Position numbers and translations under genes: made by a program. The notes under the pieces were generated by a model. It was not told the DNA's origin and did no database searches. It saw only the letters and a program-made list of their open reading frames with translations. From Enterococcus moraviensis ATCC BAA-383 (GTDB lineage: Bacteria > Bacillota > Bacilli > Lactobacillales > Enterococcaceae), in NCBI RefSeq assembly GCF_000407445.1, contig NZ_ASWB01000003.1:496001-560000 (forward strand): DNA of 64,000 nucleotides, written 5' to 3'. Position 1 is the first letter of the stretch; each line of letters begins with the position of its first letter. This document shows positions 31,487-38,769 of the stretch, in pieces.

Positions 31487-32323
31487 TTATCTTTGGCTCA
31501 TCTTCTTATTTCTTTGCATCGTTACAACCAATTTACGGACGATACTTACGAGGATAAATAACGCGATAAAAATCAATGTGATGCTGGCACTTGGCGGTGT
31601 TTCTAAATAATAAGAGCCCGTCAATCCTGTTAGCATGCCAATCAATCCCATAATAACGCTAATGATGATTACCGTATTAAATCCTTTCCCTATCCGCATT
31701 CCGATTGCTGCTGGTAAGACCATGATCGCCGAAATCAACAGCGCTCCCGCAATTGGAATCATTACGGCAATCGCAACACCTGTAATCACGTTAAACAACA
31801 TCGACATCCAATGGATTGGTAATCCATCCACATGAGCCGTATCTTCATCAAAAGTCAAAACATACATGGGACGTTTGAATAGGATAAACAAGATCACTAA
31901 CACAACGAATAAAACGGCTAAGGTAATGACTTGCTGCCATGTGATCGTCACAATCGATCCAAATAAATACGATTGAATACTCGCTGCTGAATTTCCTCCG
32001 CTCAGATTCATCAGCACCAAAGCTAACGCTAATCCACCTGACATTAAGATTGCAATCGAGATTTCTGAGTACGTACTATAAATCATTCGTAGGTATTCTA
32101 AAATAATTGCAGCAATAATCACGACAACCATTGTCATGATATTTGGATTCCAGTTTAAGAAAAATCCCAAAGCAACTCCGGCTAGCGACACGTGTGAAAG
32201 AGTATCCGCCATTAAAGATTGTCTTCTGATCACAAGAAATACCCCTAGCATTGGTGCAATGACCGAAATAAAGGTTGCTGCTAAAAAAGCTTTTCTCATG
32301 AACTCATATGAAAGCATCTCCAA
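31487..32323 (-). CDS. adcB: Zinc ABC transporter permease
   Basis: A 278-residue permease of the ZnuB/AdcB family (ABC-3) with 7-8 spans. MLGVFLVIRRQSLMADTLSHVSLAGVALG and the ISIAILMSGGLALALVLM and PAAIGMRIGKGFN segments are typical. It ends the zinc operon in relatives, overlapping adcC. Here it is separated from adcC by 4.6 kb of inserted DNA. The start is TTG 32323, with AAGGAGG 9 bases upstream lying in the inserted DNA; the first 22 bases of the gene are one copy of the 24-bp direct repeat. It has its own Zur-controlled promoter candidate. Confidence 0.93.
   Translation of the reverse strand: MEMLSYEFMRKAFLAATFISVIAPMLGVFLVIRRQSLMADTLSHVSLAGVALGFFLNWNPNIMTMVVVIIAAIILEYLRMIYSTYSEISIAILMSGGLALALVLMNLSGGNSAASIQSYLFGSIVTITWQQVITLAVLFVVLVILFILFKRPMYVLTFDEDTAHVDGLPIHWMSMLFNVITGVAIAVMIPIAGALLISAIMVLPAAIGMRIGKGFNTVIIISVIMGLIGMLTGLTGSYYLETPPSASITLIFIALFILVSIVRKLVVTMQRNKKMSQR
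32299..32322. repeat. 24-bp direct repeat, left copy
   Basis: Identical to 37001-37024. It covers adcB codons 1-8 and marks the left boundary of the DNA inserted in the zinc operon. Confidence 0.9.
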
Positions 32324-32433
32324 AATCTTATTCCTCCTTGTTACATAAGGCTTTAGAAGCCTATTCTATTTTGTGGGAACAGTCGCGAGAATACTAAGTT
32401 CTCTTAACTATGCTCATTACGCTTTAAAAATGT

Positions 32434-32496
32434 AAATCGTAAGAATTACGATTAAAGGGCAAGATATACTTTATCATTATAAAAACGACTAGTCAA
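32434..32496 (-). promoter_or_regulatory. Second Zur-box promoter, ahead of adcB
   Basis: On the minus strand TTGACT (32496-32491), 17 bp, TAAAGT (32473-32468). Just downstream is a Zur-box-like palindrome, AATCGTAA / TTACGATT (32435-32453), matching the 7-1-7 Firmicute consensus with one mismatch. It would let zinc control adcB although the gene is cut off from adcAC. Confidence 0.65.
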
Positions 32497-32506
32497 GAGA
32501 ATTATT

Positions 32507-32701
32507 CTAAATAATTTGATCCAATCTTTTTACTACCTCGACATCTTCATTCGGATATAGGTGTGAGTATGTTCCTAATGCCATTTTCCCATTTAAATTA
32601 CATAAAAAAAGAGTAGATTTCTCCACTCCATAAAAACTTAACTTTTTAAGACACTGGCTCTCTCGTAACAATTTGTCTTTCACTATAACCACAGCTTTCA
32701 T
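32507..32701 (-). CDS. Small hypothetical protein
   Basis: A 64-residue frame in the inserted DNA, between the ABC cassette and the adcB promoter. It has no clear ribosome site ahead of ATG 32701, no hydrophobic span and no motif I recognise. It may be a remnant. Low certainty. Confidence 0.3.
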   Translation of the reverse strand: MKAVVIVKDKLLRESQCLKKLSFYGVEKSTLFLCNLNGKMALGTYSHLYPNEDVEVVKRLDQII

Positions 32702-32731
32702 ACAATTTCAAAACTGACTTCAATGAATATG

Positions 32732-32775
32732 CTTATTTTACAGTGTTTTTTTGTTTTATCTGTTACTAATTCTGA
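32732..32775. repeat. Imperfect direct repeat, left copy
   Basis: About 43 bases similar to 36962-37003: both contain CTTATTTTA, a T-rich run and GTTACTAATTCTGA. The pair brackets the six-gene cassette. Confidence 0.65.
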
Positions 32776-32807
32776 CCCTATAGAACATCGTTAAAAATAG
32801 ACCTACG

Positions 32808-33446
32808 TCACAAAATTGGAACGATTAATATCGTGACATCCTTATCTCCTGAATTTTTAAAAAATGAAATAATCCTATCTGATTTTAACTCTTTAATATG
32901 TTCCGTCGACTGATCAAGTAAAAAATTATCTAAAACATTATTAATAAACCCTGTACTATCATCGATATCTTGAATTTGGCAAACTACTTTTCCTGCTCCT
33001 ATAATTTTAAATGCATATTTTCCACTCATAGAAACAGGAACAAAAAAATGACCATACGTATTTACTAACTGAACACTACCATCTGATTTTAATGGTAAAA
33101 ATTTTTCTTTTGAAGGCTTTAATTGAACTGAACTTTTTTTAGGTGTTTGAATTTTATTTGTATCATAGAATGCCTTATTTCGAATAACATCCTTATTATT
33201 CAAATTGTCATTTCCTGCAAAAGTCTCATTATTGTCAATCTCAGATAGATCATAAAATCCTGTAGGAAAAGTTTCAGAGTTAGCTTCTACAGTATACGTT
33301 TTATTTTTTTTCAATTCTATCTCTTTAGCGGGGTTCTTTTCAAAAGTAAACTCGTTGGAGATAGTGCGATTATTTATCACCCTCATCGCTACCAATACAA
33401 GTAGACAACCACAAATAACGAATAATACTGCTTTTCTCACCGACAA
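32808..33446 (-). CDS. Membrane-anchored extracytoplasmic protein of the ABC cassette
   Basis: A 212-residue protein. Residues 5-22 are a membrane anchor or uncleaved signal; the rest is hydrophilic and Asn/Lys-rich, with no motif I can name. It overlaps the ATPase gene by 10 bases, so it is the last gene of the operon. It could be an accessory or immunity component of the transporter. This is inferred from position only. Confidence 0.6.
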   Translation of the reverse strand: MSVRKAVLFVICGCLLVLVAMRVINNRTISNEFTFEKNPAKEIELKKNKTYTVEANSETFPTGFYDLSEIDNNETFAGNDNLNNKDVIRNKAFYDTNKIQTPKKSSVQLKPSKEKFLPLKSDGSVQLVNTYGHFFVPVSMSGKYAFKIIGAGKVVCQIQDIDDSTGFINNVLDNFLLDQSTEHIKELKSDRIISFFKNSGDKDVTILIVPIL

Positions 33447-34063
33447 ATACTTCCCTCCTTAATCGTGATAATGGAATCACATAATTCATCTATGTCTTTT
33501 TTGTTGTGACTCGCGATGACAATAATCCGTCCATTACTCTTCAATTCTTTAATAAGCTGATAAAATTTTTCTATAGCCTCGTCATCAAGCCCATTTGTTG
33601 GCTCATCCAACAATAAAACTTTAGGTTTTTCAAATATAGCTTGTGCAATAATTAATTTTTGTTTCATACCCAAAGAGTATTTCTTTACCGGCCTAGAATC
33701 TTTTGGATCCAACCCTACTCTACTTAGAGCTAGTTCTATCTCTTTGTCATTTGCACTTTTTTTAATTTTAGAAAGGAGTCTTAAATTATTAAAGCCACTT
33801 ATTGTCGGGTCTAGTCCTTCATGTTCAATAAGTAGACCTAGACTGGGTAAAAAATCAAAATCTTTTCCTAATATTTTACCATCATATGTTATTTCCCCTT
33901 CACGCACCCGAATAAGTCCTGCCATGGCACGCAATAACATTGTTTTACCCGAACCATTTTGACCAACTAAACCATATACATTTCCTTCTTCAAAAGTTAA
34001 ACTTATGTTTTTTAATACCATATGCTTTTTTAACTTTTTTGAGATATTATCAACAACTAACAT
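33437..34063 (-). CDS. ABC transporter ATP-binding protein
   Basis: A 208-residue ATPase of the BcrA/CcmA-like group. Walker A is GQNGSGKT, the signature is YSLGMKQKL in place of LSGGQ, and Walker B is VLLLDEPTNGLDD, with a switch histidine in IASHN. It follows three membrane genes with 9 bases between and overlaps the next gene, so it should energise a transporter of those subunits. Its probable cargo or target is the DUF2712-like protein encoded first. Confidence 0.9.
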   Translation of the reverse strand: MLVVDNISKKLKKHMVLKNISLTFEEGNVYGLVGQNGSGKTMLLRAMAGLIRVREGEITYDGKILGKDFDFLPSLGLLIEHEGLDPTISGFNNLRLLSKIKKSANDKEIELALSRVGLDPKDSRPVKKYSLGMKQKLIIAQAIFEKPKVLLLDEPTNGLDDEAIEKFYQLIKELKSNGRIIVIASHNKKDIDELCDSIITIKEGSICR

Positions 34064-34072
34064 TTATATCCC

Positions 34073-34729
34073 TCACAAATAATTTATTTTTTTTGCTACA
34101 ACATAATGAACAACTATAAATAGGAGAACCAATAGCATCTCTAAAAATAGGATTACGCTGCTTACTCGACCAATTCTATTTAAGTATGACGGAAACGCTA
34201 AAACTACTCCTATTACAGGTATTTTTGAAAATATATCGGAAAAGACAACAACACCCAAAATATACGCATTTACTCCTACTATTGATAGATATAGATTTTT
34301 AGTCATAAACATAATCAAAGAAGATAACAGACCAACAATAAGTATCGCAACACTTTGAAGTACATATTCACTCGTAATTATTAAGTCAGGCATTTGTACT
34401 TTCCGAATAATAATTACCATCAATAAAATACCAACGTTTACAGCTATGTTAATTAAGACTTTTTTTAAGTATTGGTTCATCACGTTGATTCTAGTATCAT
34501 ATCTAACAACAGAATAACTAATAATTTTTTGCTTTAAAAATTGAAAACAAGACAGCATCAAACAAGTATACATATAGCTATATATCAAAAACCAGGATAA
34601 GAGCTCCTTCACCGAGAAATTTTTAGATAATCCAACGATTACTGAAAACTCTGTTGTATGTTCATAATTAAAACCATTATCAAATAGTAGAAAAAGTAGA
34701 AATAAAACAATAACTTCAATATATTTCAT
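34073..34729 (-). CDS. Membrane subunit of the ABC cassette (third)
   Basis: A 218-residue protein with about six hydrophobic spans and no recognised family. The 4-base overlap with the gene before it (34726-34729) suggests coupled translation. It is similar in size and layout to the preceding 221-residue protein, so the two may form a heteromeric permease. Confidence 0.7.
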   Translation of the reverse strand: MKYIEVIVLFLLFLLFDNGFNYEHTTEFSVIVGLSKNFSVKELLSWFLIYSYMYTCLMLSCFQFLKQKIISYSVVRYDTRINVMNQYLKKVLINIAVNVGILLMVIIIRKVQMPDLIITSEYVLQSVAILIVGLLSSLIMFMTKNLYLSIVGVNAYILGVVVFSDIFSKIPVIGVVLAFPSYLNRIGRVSSVILFLEMLLVLLFIVVHYVVAKKINYL

Positions 34730-35391
34730 AACAGATCAGTCCTTTTAAATAGTTCAAAATTGATAATGAGCAAGAACAACGTAACAGATATAAACATAGG
34801 GAGGTAGACAATTATACTCATCTCAATATTTAATACATAGTATGCAAAACTTGAATTAAAAAAAGAAAAGTACTCTTCAAACAGAAAATACAGTCCCATG
34901 ATTAAAAAAACGGATAGAATCATATTCTTTCCCTTACTTTTATTTCCATTTAACAAGTTTATCAACATATAAATTTGAAATGCTATGTTAACCATAAAGA
35001 AGAAAATTAAAGTTTGTTTAATATATTCAGATAAAACAACAGAATTTGAAGCAAATAAAAATACTAGCAACCCAATTAAAAAATAAATTCCAATGAATCT
35101 AATGGACTCTAGAAATCCTCTCATACATTCAAAAAAATAGCGTTTATTTTTTGTCATTCTCACATTTTCATAGACATTTTTTTCTGGCATGAAAATCCCT
35201 ATTGAAAAAAGGAAAAGAGGAACCAGTATAAAGATAAATAAAGATAAATCGTAATAAGAAAAGTAGTTTGTCATCTGATCTGTCACACTGTTTTTAGGAT
35301 TAATTCTAGCTAGGAATTGAGTAAAATATAAAACAAATAGAAGAAGAATTTGTATTAACATTCTGATGACGTTTTGACTAAACAAAATCAT
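34726..35391 (-). CDS. Membrane subunit of the ABC cassette (second)
   Basis: A 221-residue protein with about six spans (for example MLIQILLLFVLYFTQFL at the N-terminus). It overlaps both neighbours, by 14 and 4 bases. No named family recognised. Its codons are strongly AT-rich compared with the zinc genes on either side, which suggests acquisition. Confidence 0.7.
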   Translation of the reverse strand: MILFSQNVIRMLIQILLLFVLYFTQFLARINPKNSVTDQMTNYFSYYDLSLFIFILVPLFLFSIGIFMPEKNVYENVRMTKNKRYFFECMRGFLESIRFIGIYFLIGLLVFLFASNSVVLSEYIKQTLIFFFMVNIAFQIYMLINLLNGNKSKGKNMILSVFLIMGLYFLFEEYFSFFNSSFAYYVLNIEMSIIVYLPMFISVTLFLLIINFELFKRTDLL

Positions 35392-36154
35392 AATTCAACC
35401 ACCATTTTCGTTGAATGATTAAACAAATGCTCATTAATAATATTATTGAAATAAGGTACATAAATTTTAAGCTAAAGGTGTATTCCGTAAATGGCTGAAA
35501 ACTAACCATGATAGAAGGTGTAATACTAATTAATAGATACCATATGCTTATTACTATAAATACTGTATAGTAAATTGATTTAGTAAAAATATTTACAGTA
35601 GAAATAATTACACTCATACATCCTGTTATAACTGCTCCCATAATTATATGTATCCAATTGGATAATCCTGGATGACTAAGCTCCCAAAGAATTGAGTTAT
35701 GAAGCAATGTCTGAAAATCACCAACACTGATAGAATGTTCTACCATAAACGGAACAGCCTTTTCTTTTCTGAAAATAATAGTCACAGCCCCATAATTAAT
35801 AACTGCCGATAAAAACATCAAGCAAAATCCATAAAAGAAATTGACTTGATTGTATACCTTCCAATAATATTTTCGATCTTTTCTTATCATGATGGACAAG
35901 AGGTTTCCTGAATTAAAATCTGACAATGACCAATAACTCGCTCCAAAAACTAGATAGACTGGTAACAGCCATAATAATAACATTTGGGCATAATGACCTT
36001 CTGAATTACCCGCTAAAAATGTAGAATAATTAGGGGCATACCCTCCAAATGATTTATACAACATAAATACGTCGATCAACATTAATACAAAAAATAGAAG
36101 AAAAATAAAGTTGCTTCTTCTATCACTAAATAGACGTTTAAAAAAATACTCCAT
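35378..36154 (-). CDS. Membrane subunit of the ABC cassette (first)
   Basis: A 258-residue protein with about six spans. The N-terminal FFKRLFSDRRSNFIFLLFFVLML and the first extracytoplasmic loop resemble ABC-2-type permeases of peptide or bacteriocin systems in general layout. It begins 63 bases after the DUF2712-like gene. An AAAGGAG-like site (AAAAGGAGTTT) precedes ATG. Confidence 0.72.
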   Translation of the reverse strand: MEYFFKRLFSDRRSNFIFLLFFVLMLIDVFMLYKSFGGYAPNYSTFLAGNSEGHYAQMLLLWLLPVYLVFGASYWSLSDFNSGNLLSIMIRKDRKYYWKVYNQVNFFYGFCLMFLSAVINYGAVTIIFRKEKAVPFMVEHSISVGDFQTLLHNSILWELSHPGLSNWIHIIMGAVITGCMSVIISTVNIFTKSIYYTVFIVISIWYLLISITPSIMVSFQPFTEYTFSLKFMYLISIILLMSICLIIQRKWWLNYDFV

Positions 36155-36217
36155 TATAAACTCCTTTTATAAAAATATAGTAGAGCTTTCACTCTACTAT
36201 AACTAATACACATTGAT

Positions 36218-36682
36218 TTATGGACGATTTAATAACTGTCCACCAGAAATAATATACGCAGTCTCCTCATCCCATGTCCCATAACAAGAATAAGATGCGT
36301 TATTATAGTTATTATTCTCAGCTGTTAATTTTACATTTTGTTTGCTTGCTGATGAATACGCTGAATTGTACAACCTAGGACCTCCAGCTGACGCATTGAA
36401 TGCTTTTGAAACATTCTCGCCATTTGATTTTTCTAACCAAAAACGTGTATACGTCATCCACCCCTCTTCAGAAGAACCCAATTGAACAGTCCAAGCTCTG
36501 TTCCGATTAGTAGTTTGTCTATAGCGAGTGCTTGTAGACGTATTTTTTTGCTTAGGTTTGATCACAAACGTAAATTTTACATAATCCGTTTTGTACGCTG
36601 CATACGCTTTGGCCGTAAAGCCTAATGATACAAGAACTAGCAAACAAGCCATTAACCACATTACCCTTTTTTTCATTTTCAT
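36218..36682 (-). CDS. Secreted DUF2712/YolA-like protein
   Basis: A 154-residue exported protein. The signal peptide is about residues 1-29 (ends AYA-AYKTD). The mature part (FTFVIKPKQKN, TRYRQTTNRNRAW, YSSASKQNVKLTAENNNYNNASY, GTWDEETAY) matches my memory of DUF2712, the family of B. subtilis prophage protein YolA. Its function is unknown; a secreted beta-rich protein encoded first in an operon with an ABC transporter suggests a bacteriocin-like or surface role. GAGGGGG lies 2 bases before the first ATG, and the second ATG (36676) has better spacing. Promoter candidate: TCGACT, 17 bp, TACAAT. Confidence 0.75.
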   Translation of the reverse strand: MKMKKRVMWLMACLLVLVSLGFTAKAYAAYKTDYVKFTFVIKPKQKNTSTSTRYRQTTNRNRAWTVQLGSSEEGWMTYTRFWLEKSNGENVSKAFNASAGGPRLYNSAYSSASKQNVKLTAENNNYNNASYSCYGTWDEETAYIISGGQLLNRP

Positions 36683-36845
36683 TTCCCCCTCTTAGCCTAA
36701 CTTAGAAATTCAGTTGAATTCCAAAATCCCATTGTAACATATAGTTCATTTTAAGTCGATTTAATTTATCTGATAGTCGTTTAACGTAGATTAAATAGAC
36801 AAAGTATTTACATTAGCTAAAAATCTTGCTTATTTGACTAAACAT

Positions 36846-36937
36846 AAAAAAAAGACCTATTATTTGATGTGACCACAAAAAGTTCGATTTTTTTGTGGTC
36901 ACTACAATTCTCAATAGGTCTTTTTTTAATTCATTTG
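36846..36937. terminator. Large nested bidirectional terminator
   Basis: AAAAAAAGACCTATT pairs with AATAGGTCTTTTTTT, enclosing GTGACCACAAAAA/TTTTTGTGGTCAC. T tracts lie on both strands. It separates adcC from the inserted cassette and would stop adcAC transcription from reaching adcB. Confidence 0.85.
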
Positions 36938-36961
36938 TACCAAATATGATAGCTAGCAACA

Positions 36962-37003
36962 CTTATTTTAGTGTGTTTTTTCTGTATTCGTTACTAATTC
37001 TGA
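36962..37003. repeat. Imperfect direct repeat, right copy
   Basis: Similar to 32732-32775. On the minus strand it encodes the last residues of adcC ([10 protein letters not shown], stop). Confidence 0.65.
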
Positions 37004-37678
37004 ACTCATATGAAAGCATCTCCATTGTGAGTCCTCCTTCCGAACTAAACGAATTTGGCGATCCGCATACGATTTGATATCTTCATGATCATGCGTGATC
37101 ATCAAAATCGCTTTGCCATGATCATGAGCATTATGCCTTAAAAGACGATAAAACTCATTTCTAGACGTTTCATCCATCCCAGTTGTTGGTTCATCTAAAA
37201 TAAATAAATCAGGGTCAGTCGCAAATATACGGGCTAAACTGATACGTTGTTTCTGCCCACCTGAAAGTTCACCAATACGTTTATGACGCATCTCCCACAT
37301 GCCGACCGCCTTTAATGCTTTTTCTACATGTTGATGATCACGTTTTGTTAATGGCTTAAACCAACGATTACGTGGAAAACGTCCTGAACGAACTAACTCG
37401 ATCACAGTACTTGGAAATCCCGCATTAAATGAAGCCACTTGTTGCGGAATATAGCCAATGCTAAGTTTTTCTCCTTCTGTATTTTCTTTGGCGATTGTAA
37501 TGGCCCCTTTAGTTGGTTTCAATAACCCTAAAGTACTTTTGATCAATGTTGATTTGGCCGCACCGTTTTCACCAGTGAGAATGACAAATTCACCTGGATC
37601 AACAAAATATGAAACATCTTCTAAGACTGGTTCATCATCGTAATAGAATGTGAGGTCTTTGACTTCTAGATAATGCAT
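36968..37678 (-). CDS. adcC: Zinc ABC transporter ATP-binding protein
   Basis: A 236-residue ATPase of the AdcC/ZnuC family. Walker A is GENGAAKST (an A where G is usual), the signature is LSGGQKQR and Walker B is [13 protein letters not shown]. It follows adcA by 78 bases. In the uninterrupted arrangement the gene would end at TGA just past CATATGAGTTCA, overlapping adcB. Here the inserted DNA replaces that stop and adds ten residues, [10 protein letters not shown]. Confidence 0.93.
37001..37024. repeat. 24-bp direct repeat, right copy
   Basis: Identical to 32299-32322. On the minus strand it codes the adcC segment WRCFHMSS and, in the other frame, the adcB start MEMLSYEF. Confidence 0.9.
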
Positions 37679-37756: not shown

Positions 37757-38716
37757 TTACTTAATACTTTTCTTCAAGGCTTCAAGATTGGCCTTCATCA
37801 CTGAAATATAATCTTCGCCTTGCTCTTGTTCTTTTTTGGTAAGACTTTCTAGCGGATTAAGGACCGCTAATTCTACATCTGTTTCACGCGCCAATGTTTC
37901 AGCTACTTTTGATGAAGCCGACGTTTCAAAATAAATCACGGACACGTTATGCTCTTTGATATATTTTTTCAACTCAGCTAAACGACTAGGCGACGGTTCT
38001 TGATCTGGAGAAATCCCCGCAATCGATTCTTGTGTCAAACCGTATTGTTTTGCTAAATAACCAAACGCCGCATGTTGCGTCACAAACGTTTTATTGTTCG
38101 CATTGGCGAATGCTTCTTTATATTCTGAATCTAAGGCTTTTAATTTTTCACTATAAGCTGTAGCATTTTTCTCAAATGTGGCTTTTTTATCTGGATATTT
38201 TTTGACTAACGCATCCCGAATCGTTTCAACTTCTTTTTGTGCTAAAACTGGATCTAACCAAACATGTGGGTCTAATTCGTGATCATGTCCACTATGGTCA
38301 GCTTCGTCTTCATGCTCTTCTTCGTGAGCCGCACCTTCCATTAAGTCGATTGAGCTAGCTGCTTCGACAACTGCAACTTTTTTTCCATCAACATTTTCCA
38401 AAACGTCTTTGACCCAAGTCTCTAACTCGTGACTATTGTAAACAAATACGTCTGCGTCTGTGATTTTCGCAATGTCTTTGGCACTTGGTTCATAATCATG
38501 TGGTTCTGTGCCCGCTGGAATCAATAATTGTACATCTCCCGCATCCCCTACCACATTTTTAGCAAAATCATACATTGGATAAAAAGTTGTCACGACTTTT
38601 ATTGTATCACTTTTCCCTGATTCTTCTTGCTCTTTTGTTTGTCCGCAGGCTGCTAATGTAAAAATAACGGCTATTAATAACAGTCCGACACTATATTTCC
38701 AACTATTTTTTCTCAT
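37757..38716 (-). CDS. adcA: Zinc-binding lipoprotein of the Adc transporter
   Basis: A 319-residue solute-binding lipoprotein of the cluster A-I family. The signal ends at a lipobox, LAAC, with Cys24. The His/Asp/Glu-rich loop at residues 131-151 (HEEEHEDEADHSGHDHELDP) is typical of zinc binders. Metal-site histidines lie in GTEPHDYEPS, DPHVWLDP and TQHAAFGYLAKQYG. ATG 38716 follows GAGGG at 8 bases. A Zur box lies upstream. Confidence 0.94.
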   Translation of the reverse strand: MRKNSWKYSVGLLLIAVIFTLAACGQTKEQEESGKSDTIKVVTTFYPMYDFAKNVVGDAGDVQLLIPAGTEPHDYEPSAKDIAKITDADVFVYNSHELETWVKDVLENVDGKKVAVVEAASSIDLMEGAAHEEEHEDEADHSGHDHELDPHVWLDPVLAQKEVETIRDALVKKYPDKKATFEKNATAYSEKLKALDSEYKEAFANANNKTFVTQHAAFGYLAKQYGLTQESIAGISPDQEPSPSRLAELKKYIKEHNVSVIYFETSASSKVAETLARETDVELAVLNPLESLTKKEQEQGEDYISVMKANLEALKKSIK

Positions 38717-38748
38717 CTTATTGACCCTCATTTCGATTTGTCTCATTC

Positions 38749-38769
38749 AAATCGTAATATTTCCGATTT
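38749..38769 (-). promoter_or_regulatory. Zur box of the adcA operon
   Basis: AAATCGTAAT-A-TTTCCGATTT (plus strand) fits the palindromic Firmicute Zur consensus with two mismatches. It is 32 bases ahead of the adcA start. Confidence 0.7.

Follow-up and report, generated by a model that had tools for sequence, protein, structure and literature searches.

The window analysed here, a 64,000-nt stretch of the Enterococcus moraviensis ATCC BAA-383 genome, contains adcA, adcC and the zinc permease gene adcB on the minus strand, with a 4.7-kb insert separating adcC from adcB (Table 1). The earlier note had claimed that the insert is bounded by perfect 24-bp repeats, and the two 24-mers are indeed identical; with as many as 3 mismatches allowed, these were the only two copies found in the 3.59-Mb genome, and the reversed-pattern control returned 0. 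Unsplit relatives bear out the further claim that the repeat is the place where adcC ends and adcB begins, as their core begins at base 2 of the start codon of adcB and extends up to the final base preceding the adcC stop. The ten residues added to adcC and its new stop, a TAA located in element DNA, were likewise found, as were the AAGGAGG and TTG start that adcB takes from the inserted DNA. The integrase relic, the zinc-type promoter and the decayed second right end listed in Table 1 are additional to what that note describes.

Table 1. Features at the split adc locus (window coordinates)
Feature	Position	Strand	Evidence
adcB, zinc permease, element-supplied TTG start	31487..32323	-	PF00950 E 7.6e-76; intact ORF
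att core copy, adcB side (attL)	32299..32322		perfect 24-bp repeat = adcC/adcB overlap
Element-supplied Shine-Dalgarno AAGGAGG for adcB	32333..32339	-	sequence
Leader hairpin, terminator-like for + strand transcripts only	32348..32362		fold z -0.24
Direct repeats TGTTCYCA, ~12 nt apart, one decayed here	32374..32395		sequence
Candidate Zur box AATCGTAAGAATTACGATT	32435..32453		consensus, 1 mismatch; PWM score 24.3
Predicted promoter TTGACT-17-TAAAGT for adcB	32468..32496	-	sequence; conserved in left ends
Relic ORF, last 25 residues resembling tyrosine integrase C-terminus	32507..32701	-	MALGTYSHLYPNEDVEVVKRLDQII vs MTLGTYSHLYPNQDIELVKKLDQVN
Terminator-like hairpin	32610..32629	-	-9.9 kcal/mol, z -3.2
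Decayed right end of older, stacked element	32742..32782		78% identical to true right end 36970-37010
Membrane-anchored protein, no family	32808..33446	-	ORF; Pfam scan
ABC ATPase	33437..34063	-	TIGR03740 E 1e-48, 166 bits vs cutoff 310
Membrane protein	34073..34729	-	ORF; no Pfam match
Membrane protein	34726..35391	-	ORF; no Pfam match
Membrane protein, weak plasmid homologue annotated DUF2705	35378..36154	-	ORF; plasmid search
Secreted DUF2712 protein	36218..36682	-	PF10916 E 2e-19
Terminator given to adcC by element right end	36844..36930	-	-36.5 kcal/mol, z -8.0
adcC with element-supplied 10-residue tail and stop	36968..37678	-	ORF; tail sequence
att core copy, adcC side (attR)	37001..37024		perfect 24-bp repeat
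adcA	37757..38746	-	PF01297 E 4.2e-93
Native Zur box, adcA promoter	38750..38768		consensus and PWM match

The six-gene ABC cassette described earlier does fill most of the insert, but as cargo rather than as the mobile unit. The DUF2712 protein, the ABC ATPase (PF00005) and three membrane proteins of the earlier gene list are present, the last three having no Pfam match above cutoff; the supposed anchored protein exists as an ORF, but also lacks an above-cutoff Pfam match. The best family match of the ABC ATPase, below that family's cutoff, is of the lantibiotic-protection type. A role of the cassette in defence was unsupported, as PADLOC matched the ABC ATPase alone, which we read as a generic P-loop hit. 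A further full copy of the cassette lies at an unrelated locus in genome G018, Enterococcus termitis LMG 8895, and G010 has a version whose DUF2712 ORF is shortened. In the plasmid collection the permease matched 2 records and the DUF2712 protein 3, all at <60%, and the open-access literature held no paper with the term "DUF2712".

Occupied and empty sites in related genomes

Among 22 genomes of the genus, one per species, adcC and adcB are split by inserts of 0.7 to ~37 kb in 8, while 13 sites are empty; the remaining genome, G016, bears an 82-nt scar. The earlier note had named a lack of empty sites in close relatives, or absence of the repeat from them, as evidence against an insertion; the 13 clean sites carry the core, exactly in 10 cases and with one mismatch in 3. 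AdcB and AdcC are encoded in all 105 genomes of the family; the two genes are adjacent in 97 and separated in the other 8, every one of which belongs to the genus; the 83 family genomes outside the genus are all unsplit, with an overlap in 75 and a largest gap of 298 bp. The same core is found at both outer ends of the inserts in the 8 split genomes (0-3 mismatches), and one of these, G011, carries a tandem of three elements. The 24-bp repeats are the attL and attR cores of an integration hotspot, whose core is the adcC/adcB overlap.

The search for larger, integrase-bearing versions, proposed in the earlier note, turned up G018 and G021 with an intact integrase beside attL and G011 with a broken copy, so that all three members found of this integrase subfamily adjoin adcB. 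The G018 enzyme is a tyrosine integrase with an arm-binding domain (PF00589, PF14657, PF14659), and it is accompanied by a Rep_trans relaxase (PF02486), a VirB4-type AAA_10 ATPase (PF12846), TcpC (PF12642) and an FtsK-type coupling protein (PF01580, 26.6 bits vs cutoff 24). Judged by its gene content, the G018 element is a complete-looking ICE, and its combination of integrase, TcpC, VirB4-like ATPase and Rep_trans relaxase presumably marks the Tn916 superfamily. In the window, the integrase relic, compared with a sequence read from G018 DNA, supports the earlier inference of site-specific integration with a recombinase since lost, and there is no need to invoke the alternative, integration of a circle through short homology. 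None of the six cargo ORFs scanned is a transfer gene. The insert may be classed as a CIME, as it keeps attL and attR and has lost the ICE integrase and transfer genes except for the C-terminal relic. The less decayed elements have repeats at fixed distances at both ends; the right end of the window insert has none, and the TGTTCYCA repeats at its left end would be arm-type sites.

In other collections, the integrase subfamily had no relative in viral contigs, and 1115 of 1115 matched phage records and 356 of 357 matched plasmid records were <60%. The single plasmid record above this level holds a 58-residue C-terminal integrase piece from Lactiplantibacillus plantarum, in a stretch with neither the core nor the promoter module. 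In an order-wide sample, integrase matches at E <= 1e-75 occurred in 2 of 395 genomes, both of this genus, G021 not being among them.

Signals supplied by the element ends

We compared 10 left and 10 right ends, two of each being internal to the G011 tandem. All 10 right ends supply an adcC stop within 0-10 codons, and eight adjoin adcC itself; a terminator after the stop was found by script in 9 of 10 and by fold for the window, that of G006 being weak and distant. Each of the 10 left ends, eight of which lie next to adcB, has four signals: promoter, Zur box, ribosome-binding site and TTG start. Thus the Shine-Dalgarno sequence and TTG reported earlier are present, but they are not incidental, as they belong to this promoter-operator-leader module. 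The zinc-type promoter including its box spans 32435-32496. Mean identity across the left ends is 84% in the promoter, 81% in the box, 60% in the leader and 51% upstream, with 74% in the last 40 nt before the core. The DNA at 32323-32520 has matches in 8/8 split genomes and 0/14 unsplit congeners, and in other genera five weak matches, none at adcB. The promoter is retained even though 8 of the 10 have a broken integrase or none; however, the two inner left ends of G011 keep it with nothing to drive, so its persistence may partly reflect recency.

The window's Zur box is the best match in the genome to the consensus applied, of which the literature, in the excerpts covered, supports the palindromic nature of Zur boxes alone; it has 1 mismatch, and the sites preceding an rpsN-like gene and adcA have 2. 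Under a PWM built from 20 native adcA boxes it scores as given in Table 1, versus 4.6 for the best other site in the window excluding adcA. The PWM places a box 96-112 nt from the core in all 10 left ends, matched by 0 or 1 of 1000 shuffles each. Scores are 21.7-30.3 for native adcA boxes and 11.3-24.3 for decayed elements, and just 11.0 for elements with an intact integrase. With the box lying at the promoter, the left end would qualify as a Zur-regulon promoter, having a weaker box in intact elements; the Zur repressor itself was assigned by exclusion among three Fur-family genes and is named by no family model. The leader hairpin folds no better than its shuffles. The hairpin at 32610..32629 might protect the adcB promoter against transcription entering from the cargo, but it is not general, being weaker or absent in the other nine left ends.

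Origin and role of the left-end promoter

The element and adcA promoter consensus sequences are 64% identical over 84 nt without gaps, compared with 31 +/- 5% and a maximum of 49% for 5000 shuffles. Outside the shared functional motifs the identity is 55% versus 36% expected, attained by 19 of 5000 shuffles; these motifs account for part of the overall similarity. The G007 adcA promoter was left out of both the alignment and the PWM because a 1-nt deletion breaks its register, and that of G016 is also absent from the comparison set. Taken together, the sequences suggest that the left-end promoter is likely a captured copy of an adcA promoter.

We favor, with a probability of about 0.85, the reading that the insert is a decayed ICE remnant whose captured zinc promoter splits the operon into two zinc-regulated units. 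The insert would be an integrase-less (CIME-like) remnant of a family of integrative and conjugative elements whose tyrosine integrase probably recombines at the 24-bp overlap, and since integration duplicates the overlap, adcC and adcB would each keep their coding sequence. Because the right end gives adcC a stop and a terminator, adcB would be uncoupled from the adcA promoter; the left end may compensate by supplying a sigma-A promoter and a Zur operator, along with a ribosome-binding site and a TTG start. The module would thereby repair the uncoupling, turning one operon into two units, adcAC and adcB, that answer to a single zinc repressor, and it may have been retained after the mobility genes were lost because adcB depends on it.

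Other origins of the insert fare poorly. Direct repeats around an insert in a window without a complete recombinase might be taken for a transposase target-site duplication or for homologous integration of a circle, but the fixed core of the eight split genomes, the tyrosine integrase adjoining attL, and the end repeats at fixed distances, along with the stacking of elements at the core, led us to reject both, which we hold to be barely credible. That the DUF2712-ABC cassette is itself the mobile unit is very improbable: it takes up most of the insert and is present at other loci in G010 and G018, but the only core that these genomes showed is the one at adcCB, so the cassette lies elsewhere there without one, and other adcCB elements hold quite different cargo. 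For the promoter, it is unlikely that an element end evolved the zinc type de novo under selection for adcB expression. Such convergence would suit the fact that the -35, the -10 and the Zur box hold much of the identity, and the same layout is seen in Zur-type promoters elsewhere in other enterococci (L104, L105); against it stand the ungapped register, a TTG stretch between the -10 and the box common to all 30 sequences compared, and the finding that the adcA promoter closest to each of the 10 left ends is that of G006, G015 or G002 (69-76%), mostly not that of its own host (57-67% for nine; for G006 its own is the best match).

Some ICEs have promoters that read across their joined ends, and the left-end promoter might likewise act for the element, such as by transcription over attP once the circle has excised, with only an incidental effect on adcB. 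Its retention in the two inner left ends of G011 agrees with this. However, in a circle its transcript would cross the core and meet the right-end stop and then a terminator, which begins ~70-90 nt on in most right ends, the first right-end gene of G018 lies on the opposite strand, and there would be no account of why Zur box, ribosome-binding site and TTG are positioned for adcB; we regard this explanation as decidedly improbable. It is also improbable that zinc gates the mobility of the element through the Zur-controlled promoter firing across the attL arm-type sites and core. If it did, transcription during zinc starvation would keep the integrase from binding and so retain the element, and with ample zinc attL would be silenced by Zur and the element free to excise. 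Host and element would then both profit from the captured promoter, the former through regulated adcB and the latter by excising at a time when zinc uptake can be interrupted briefly without harm.

Comparison with known systems

Under the favored reading of a remnant with a captured zinc promoter, the closest parallels are the dusA islands (IMEVchUSA3) and SXT at prfC. According to excerpts of PMC8409611, these also integrate site-specifically at the 5' end of a host gene and provide a new promoter and start by which the gene stays expressed, with lowered reporter expression in the dusA case; there the protein receives a new N-terminus, whereas here the coding sequence is kept. Furthermore, the target here is a gene overlap within an operon, the promoter bears a Zur operator of the type native to that operon, and a stop and terminator are provided for the upstream gene. 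As a promoter and start appear to be supplied to the interrupted gene, the present elements may be counted among target-restoring ones. As in the CIME/ICE accretion outlined in excerpts of PMC5704250, attL and attR are kept, integration and transfer genes are lost and elements stack in tandem (G011 and the window), but the target site and integrase subfamily differ. Tn916-type ICEs, the subject of PMC11838328, are a further parallel. The arm-binding tyrosine integrase, TcpC, VirB4-like ATPase and Rep_trans relaxase of G018 are features of this superfamily; Tn916 inserts at many sites, in contrast to the adcB-adjoining subfamily found here. The E. faecalis adcACB genes have the same order and Zur repression and are described as one operon in excerpts of PMC8966984, where a cloning primer that we take to mark the adcB start differs from the present core.

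A search of the open-access literature by title and abstract start gave no report of integration at adcC/adcB, so that we found no earlier description of this attachment site, although a Streptococcus mutans paper (PMC12077213) mentions both adcB and an integrative and conjugative element, and none of the known promoter-restoring elements found restores an operon's own regulated promoter. The locus suggests how a mobile element may settle inside an important metabolic operon at little cost, by bringing punctuation for both ends and an apparent copy of the operon's regulated promoter, and it offers a case, open to testing, in which an ICE would mimic host regulation. It is also a natural experiment on a duplicated pair of overlapping genes, each copy drifting as its own frame allows: the drift of the two core copies tracks the frame that each still serves.

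The adcC/adcB junction as an integration hotspot

We found AdcB and AdcC proteins in all 105 Enterococcaceae genomes compared, with the two genes adjacent in 97 and split in eight, all of them in Enterococcus, where adcB DNA is present in 22 of 22 genomes. Outside this genus, 75 of the 83 adcC-adcB pairs overlap, and no gap exceeds the 298 bp seen in G070, where the AdcB match is partial. By sequence comparison, the junction is a hotspot of insertion, occupied in E. moraviensis (G000), E. larvae (G006), E. quebecensis (G011), Enterococcus sp. 5H (G017), E. termitis (G018) and three further genomes (G013, G014 and G021). Clean empty sites are found in 13 genomes, the core being exact in 10 and having one mismatch in three. 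In the literature searched we found no report of an element inserted at adcC/adcB.

The 24-bp repeats that an earlier note had described on both sides of the window insert are indeed identical, and these two perfect copies are the only ones in the genome. That note had also equated the repeat with the adcC/adcB junction, and the same 24 bases do span the overlap in unsplit relatives, beginning at base 2 of the adcB start codon and finishing immediately ahead of the adcC stop; the attachment core thus coincides with the gene overlap. Its statements that AdcC gains a new tail and stop from the insert, and AdcB a ribosome-binding site and a TTG start, were likewise borne out.

Two genomes depart from a simple insertion. 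In G021, a partial core of 15 of the 24 bases (TGAACTCATATGAAA) closes the element about 30 kb from attL. The complete adcC-side core (attR) is found inverted, 207 kb away, which indicates a chromosomal rearrangement having one end at the att core. G016, the ninth altered genome, carries a scar: the core is present in two diverged copies whose starts are 82 nt apart, and an element-like ribosome-binding site lies in between.

Coordinates and core-to-core distances of elements and related loci
Genome	Feature	Position	Core-to-core distance
G000 (window)	core copies attL (adcB side) and attR (adcC side)	32299-32322; 37001-37024	4702 bp
G000 (window)	ORF with integrase-like C-terminus	32507-32701	
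G000 (window)	second, decayed right end	32742-32782	
G006	element		723 bp
G011	tandem of three elements		7468, 2267, 20151 bp
G013	element		6851 bp
G014	element		8580 bp
G017	element		3460 bp
G018	element		36667 bp
G021	rearranged element, contig 1 (L039, L117, L040)	2411388; about 2441360; 2618299	
G018	six-gene set, contig 23	L150:6761-10614	
G010	six-gene set, contig 7	L151:6737-10533	
G038, G025	Zur-type promoters (L104, L105)	about 1480-1580	

Integrase and element ends

The gene adjoining attL in G018 encodes an intact 407-aa tyrosine integrase (PF00589, Arm-DNA-bind_4 and a SAM-like domain) and lies beside a DUF3173 gene; the element further encodes a VirB4-type ATPase, TcpC, a Rep_trans relaxase, an FtsK-type protein and a lysozyme-CHAP protein. 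The integrase of G021 is intact and 95% identical to it, that of G011 is broken and 69-71% identical, and none of the other matches listed from the 105 genomes exceeds 41% identity (limit E 1e-40). Across an order-wide sample, matches at E <= 1e-75 came from two of 395 genomes, which both belong to this genus.

This integrase would act at the core, and TGTTCYCA repeats near the element ends may be its arm-type sites. We compared ten left ends, eight adjoining adcB and two within the G011 tandem, and ten right ends, eight adjoining adcC and two at the G011 inner junctions. Repeats near -71 and -59 from the core are both present in five of the ten left ends, and at least one in all ten. At right ends they occur at +87/+99 in G011 (both inner junctions), G018 and G021 and at +89/+101 in G017, and are absent from the other five, including the window's.

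Within the window insert, the last 25 residues of a short ORF resemble the C-terminus of the G018-type integrase and a second, decayed right end is present, so the insert is best interpreted as what remains of stacked elements. CIMEs and their accretion are already known (PMC5704250).

The terminator and the Zur-type promoter

In all ten right ends the adcC frame reaches a stop 0-10 codons past the core, and a script detected a hairpin with a T-rich tail within about 210 nt in nine of ten; the hairpin of G006 is weak and distant, and the window's right end has a branched terminator (fold -36.5 kcal/mol, z -8.0) that the script overlooked. Given this stop and terminator, adcAC transcripts should end within the element, and a new promoter would then be needed for adcB. 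The scar of G016, only 82 nt from one core start to the next, retains neither promoter nor terminator, which fits this reasoning.

Towards adcB, every left end carries TTGACT-17 nt-TAAAGT, then TCTTGC (TTTTGC in the first left end of G011) and a Zur-box-like palindrome, followed by a leader with a short hairpin, a ribosome-binding site and TTG. Mean pairwise identity among these ends is highest in the core (97%), followed by the promoter (84%), the box (81%), the last 40 nt (74%), the leader (60%) and the DNA upstream (51%); selection may maintain this module, which all ten retain.

The putative Zur box of the window element is the genome's best match, with one mismatch, to the consensus AATCGTAATNATTACGATT, which has 13 sites at up to three mismatches versus six for the reversed control. 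The next-best sites, with two mismatches each, lie upstream of adcA and of a gene identified from its sequence as rpsN-like; rpsN is a classical Zur target. Over the 64-kb window, a matrix trained on 20 native adcA boxes scored 26.0 at adcA, whose box is in the training set, 24.3 at the element and no more than 4.6 elsewhere, the third-best site. In each of the ten left ends the top-scoring matrix site falls 96-112 nt from the core and was equalled by no more than one of 1000 shuffles. Scores are 11.0 in both elements with an intact integrase and 11.3-24.3 in the others, native boxes scoring 21.7-30.3. Zur may control adcB via the element promoter. The genome has three Fur-family genes, two of which match PerR and Fur best, and the third would by exclusion be Zur; a weak box (three mismatches), of a kind that also arises by chance, lies about 70 nt upstream of its matched stretch.

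We read the native adcA promoters of 21 genomes and compared those of 20 with the element promoters. Identity between the two consensus sequences is 64% across 84 ungapped positions, where 5000 shuffles gave 31 ± 5% and at most 49%. The closest adcA promoter to every left end is that of G006, G015 or G002 (69-76%), and the own host's is less close (57-67%) for nine of ten, the exception being G006. Outside the motifs identity is 55% versus 36% expected, a value reached by 19 of 5000 shuffles, so homology is likely but not certain, and we infer that the element captured an adcA promoter.

The adcACB genes of E. faecalis have been described as an operon, and adcA is repressed by Zur there (PMC8966984). 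Elements that resupply a promoter, namely dusA islands and SXT, are already known (PMC8409611); in the literature searched we found none that gives the operon it interrupts its own regulated promoter back and also furnishes the upstream gene with a stop and a terminator.

Zur-type promoters with the same layout also occur in another genus (G038 and G025), with no obvious long ORF directly downstream; at the G038 locus an integrase C-terminal fragment was seen by eye about 1 kb upstream.

The duplicated core copies seem to have drifted by frame. All five changes in the adcB-side copies of G017, G006 and G016 are silent in the adcB frame, and all five alter AdcC residues. In the adcC-side copy of G016, four changes jointly preserve WRCFHMSS of AdcC, which one alone would not, and three of the four, taken singly, alter AdcB. 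The reference for G006 and G016 was their clade's own base at position 9, and the other core copies scanned showed no change. In this small sample, a core copy seems to be constrained after duplication by no gene other than the one it still serves.

Cargo

The elements of G011 carry what we take to be surface-protein-like genes; a 20-kb element rich in large genes of this kind (L032, L033) is stacked behind two smaller ones. Those of G013 and G014 (L034, L035) presumably carry PTS-like and kinase-like genes; their PTS/kinase/dehydrogenase-like cargo at adcCB is very similar and comes without an intact integrase. The G017 element has a DUF1310 gene and, alongside it, an ORF that we assume to be WXG100-like.

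The six-gene DUF2712-ABC set of the window insert is also complete at an unrelated chromosomal locus in E. termitis, and occurs at an unrelated locus in E. plantarum (G010) with a shortened DUF2712 ORF. The window's cargo ATPase resembles lantibiotic-protection ABC ATPases, below the family cutoff, and our guess is that the cassette contributes to exporting peptides or to self-protection. In one Priestia and one Listeria record, DUF2712 adjoins a DUF2705-type permease.
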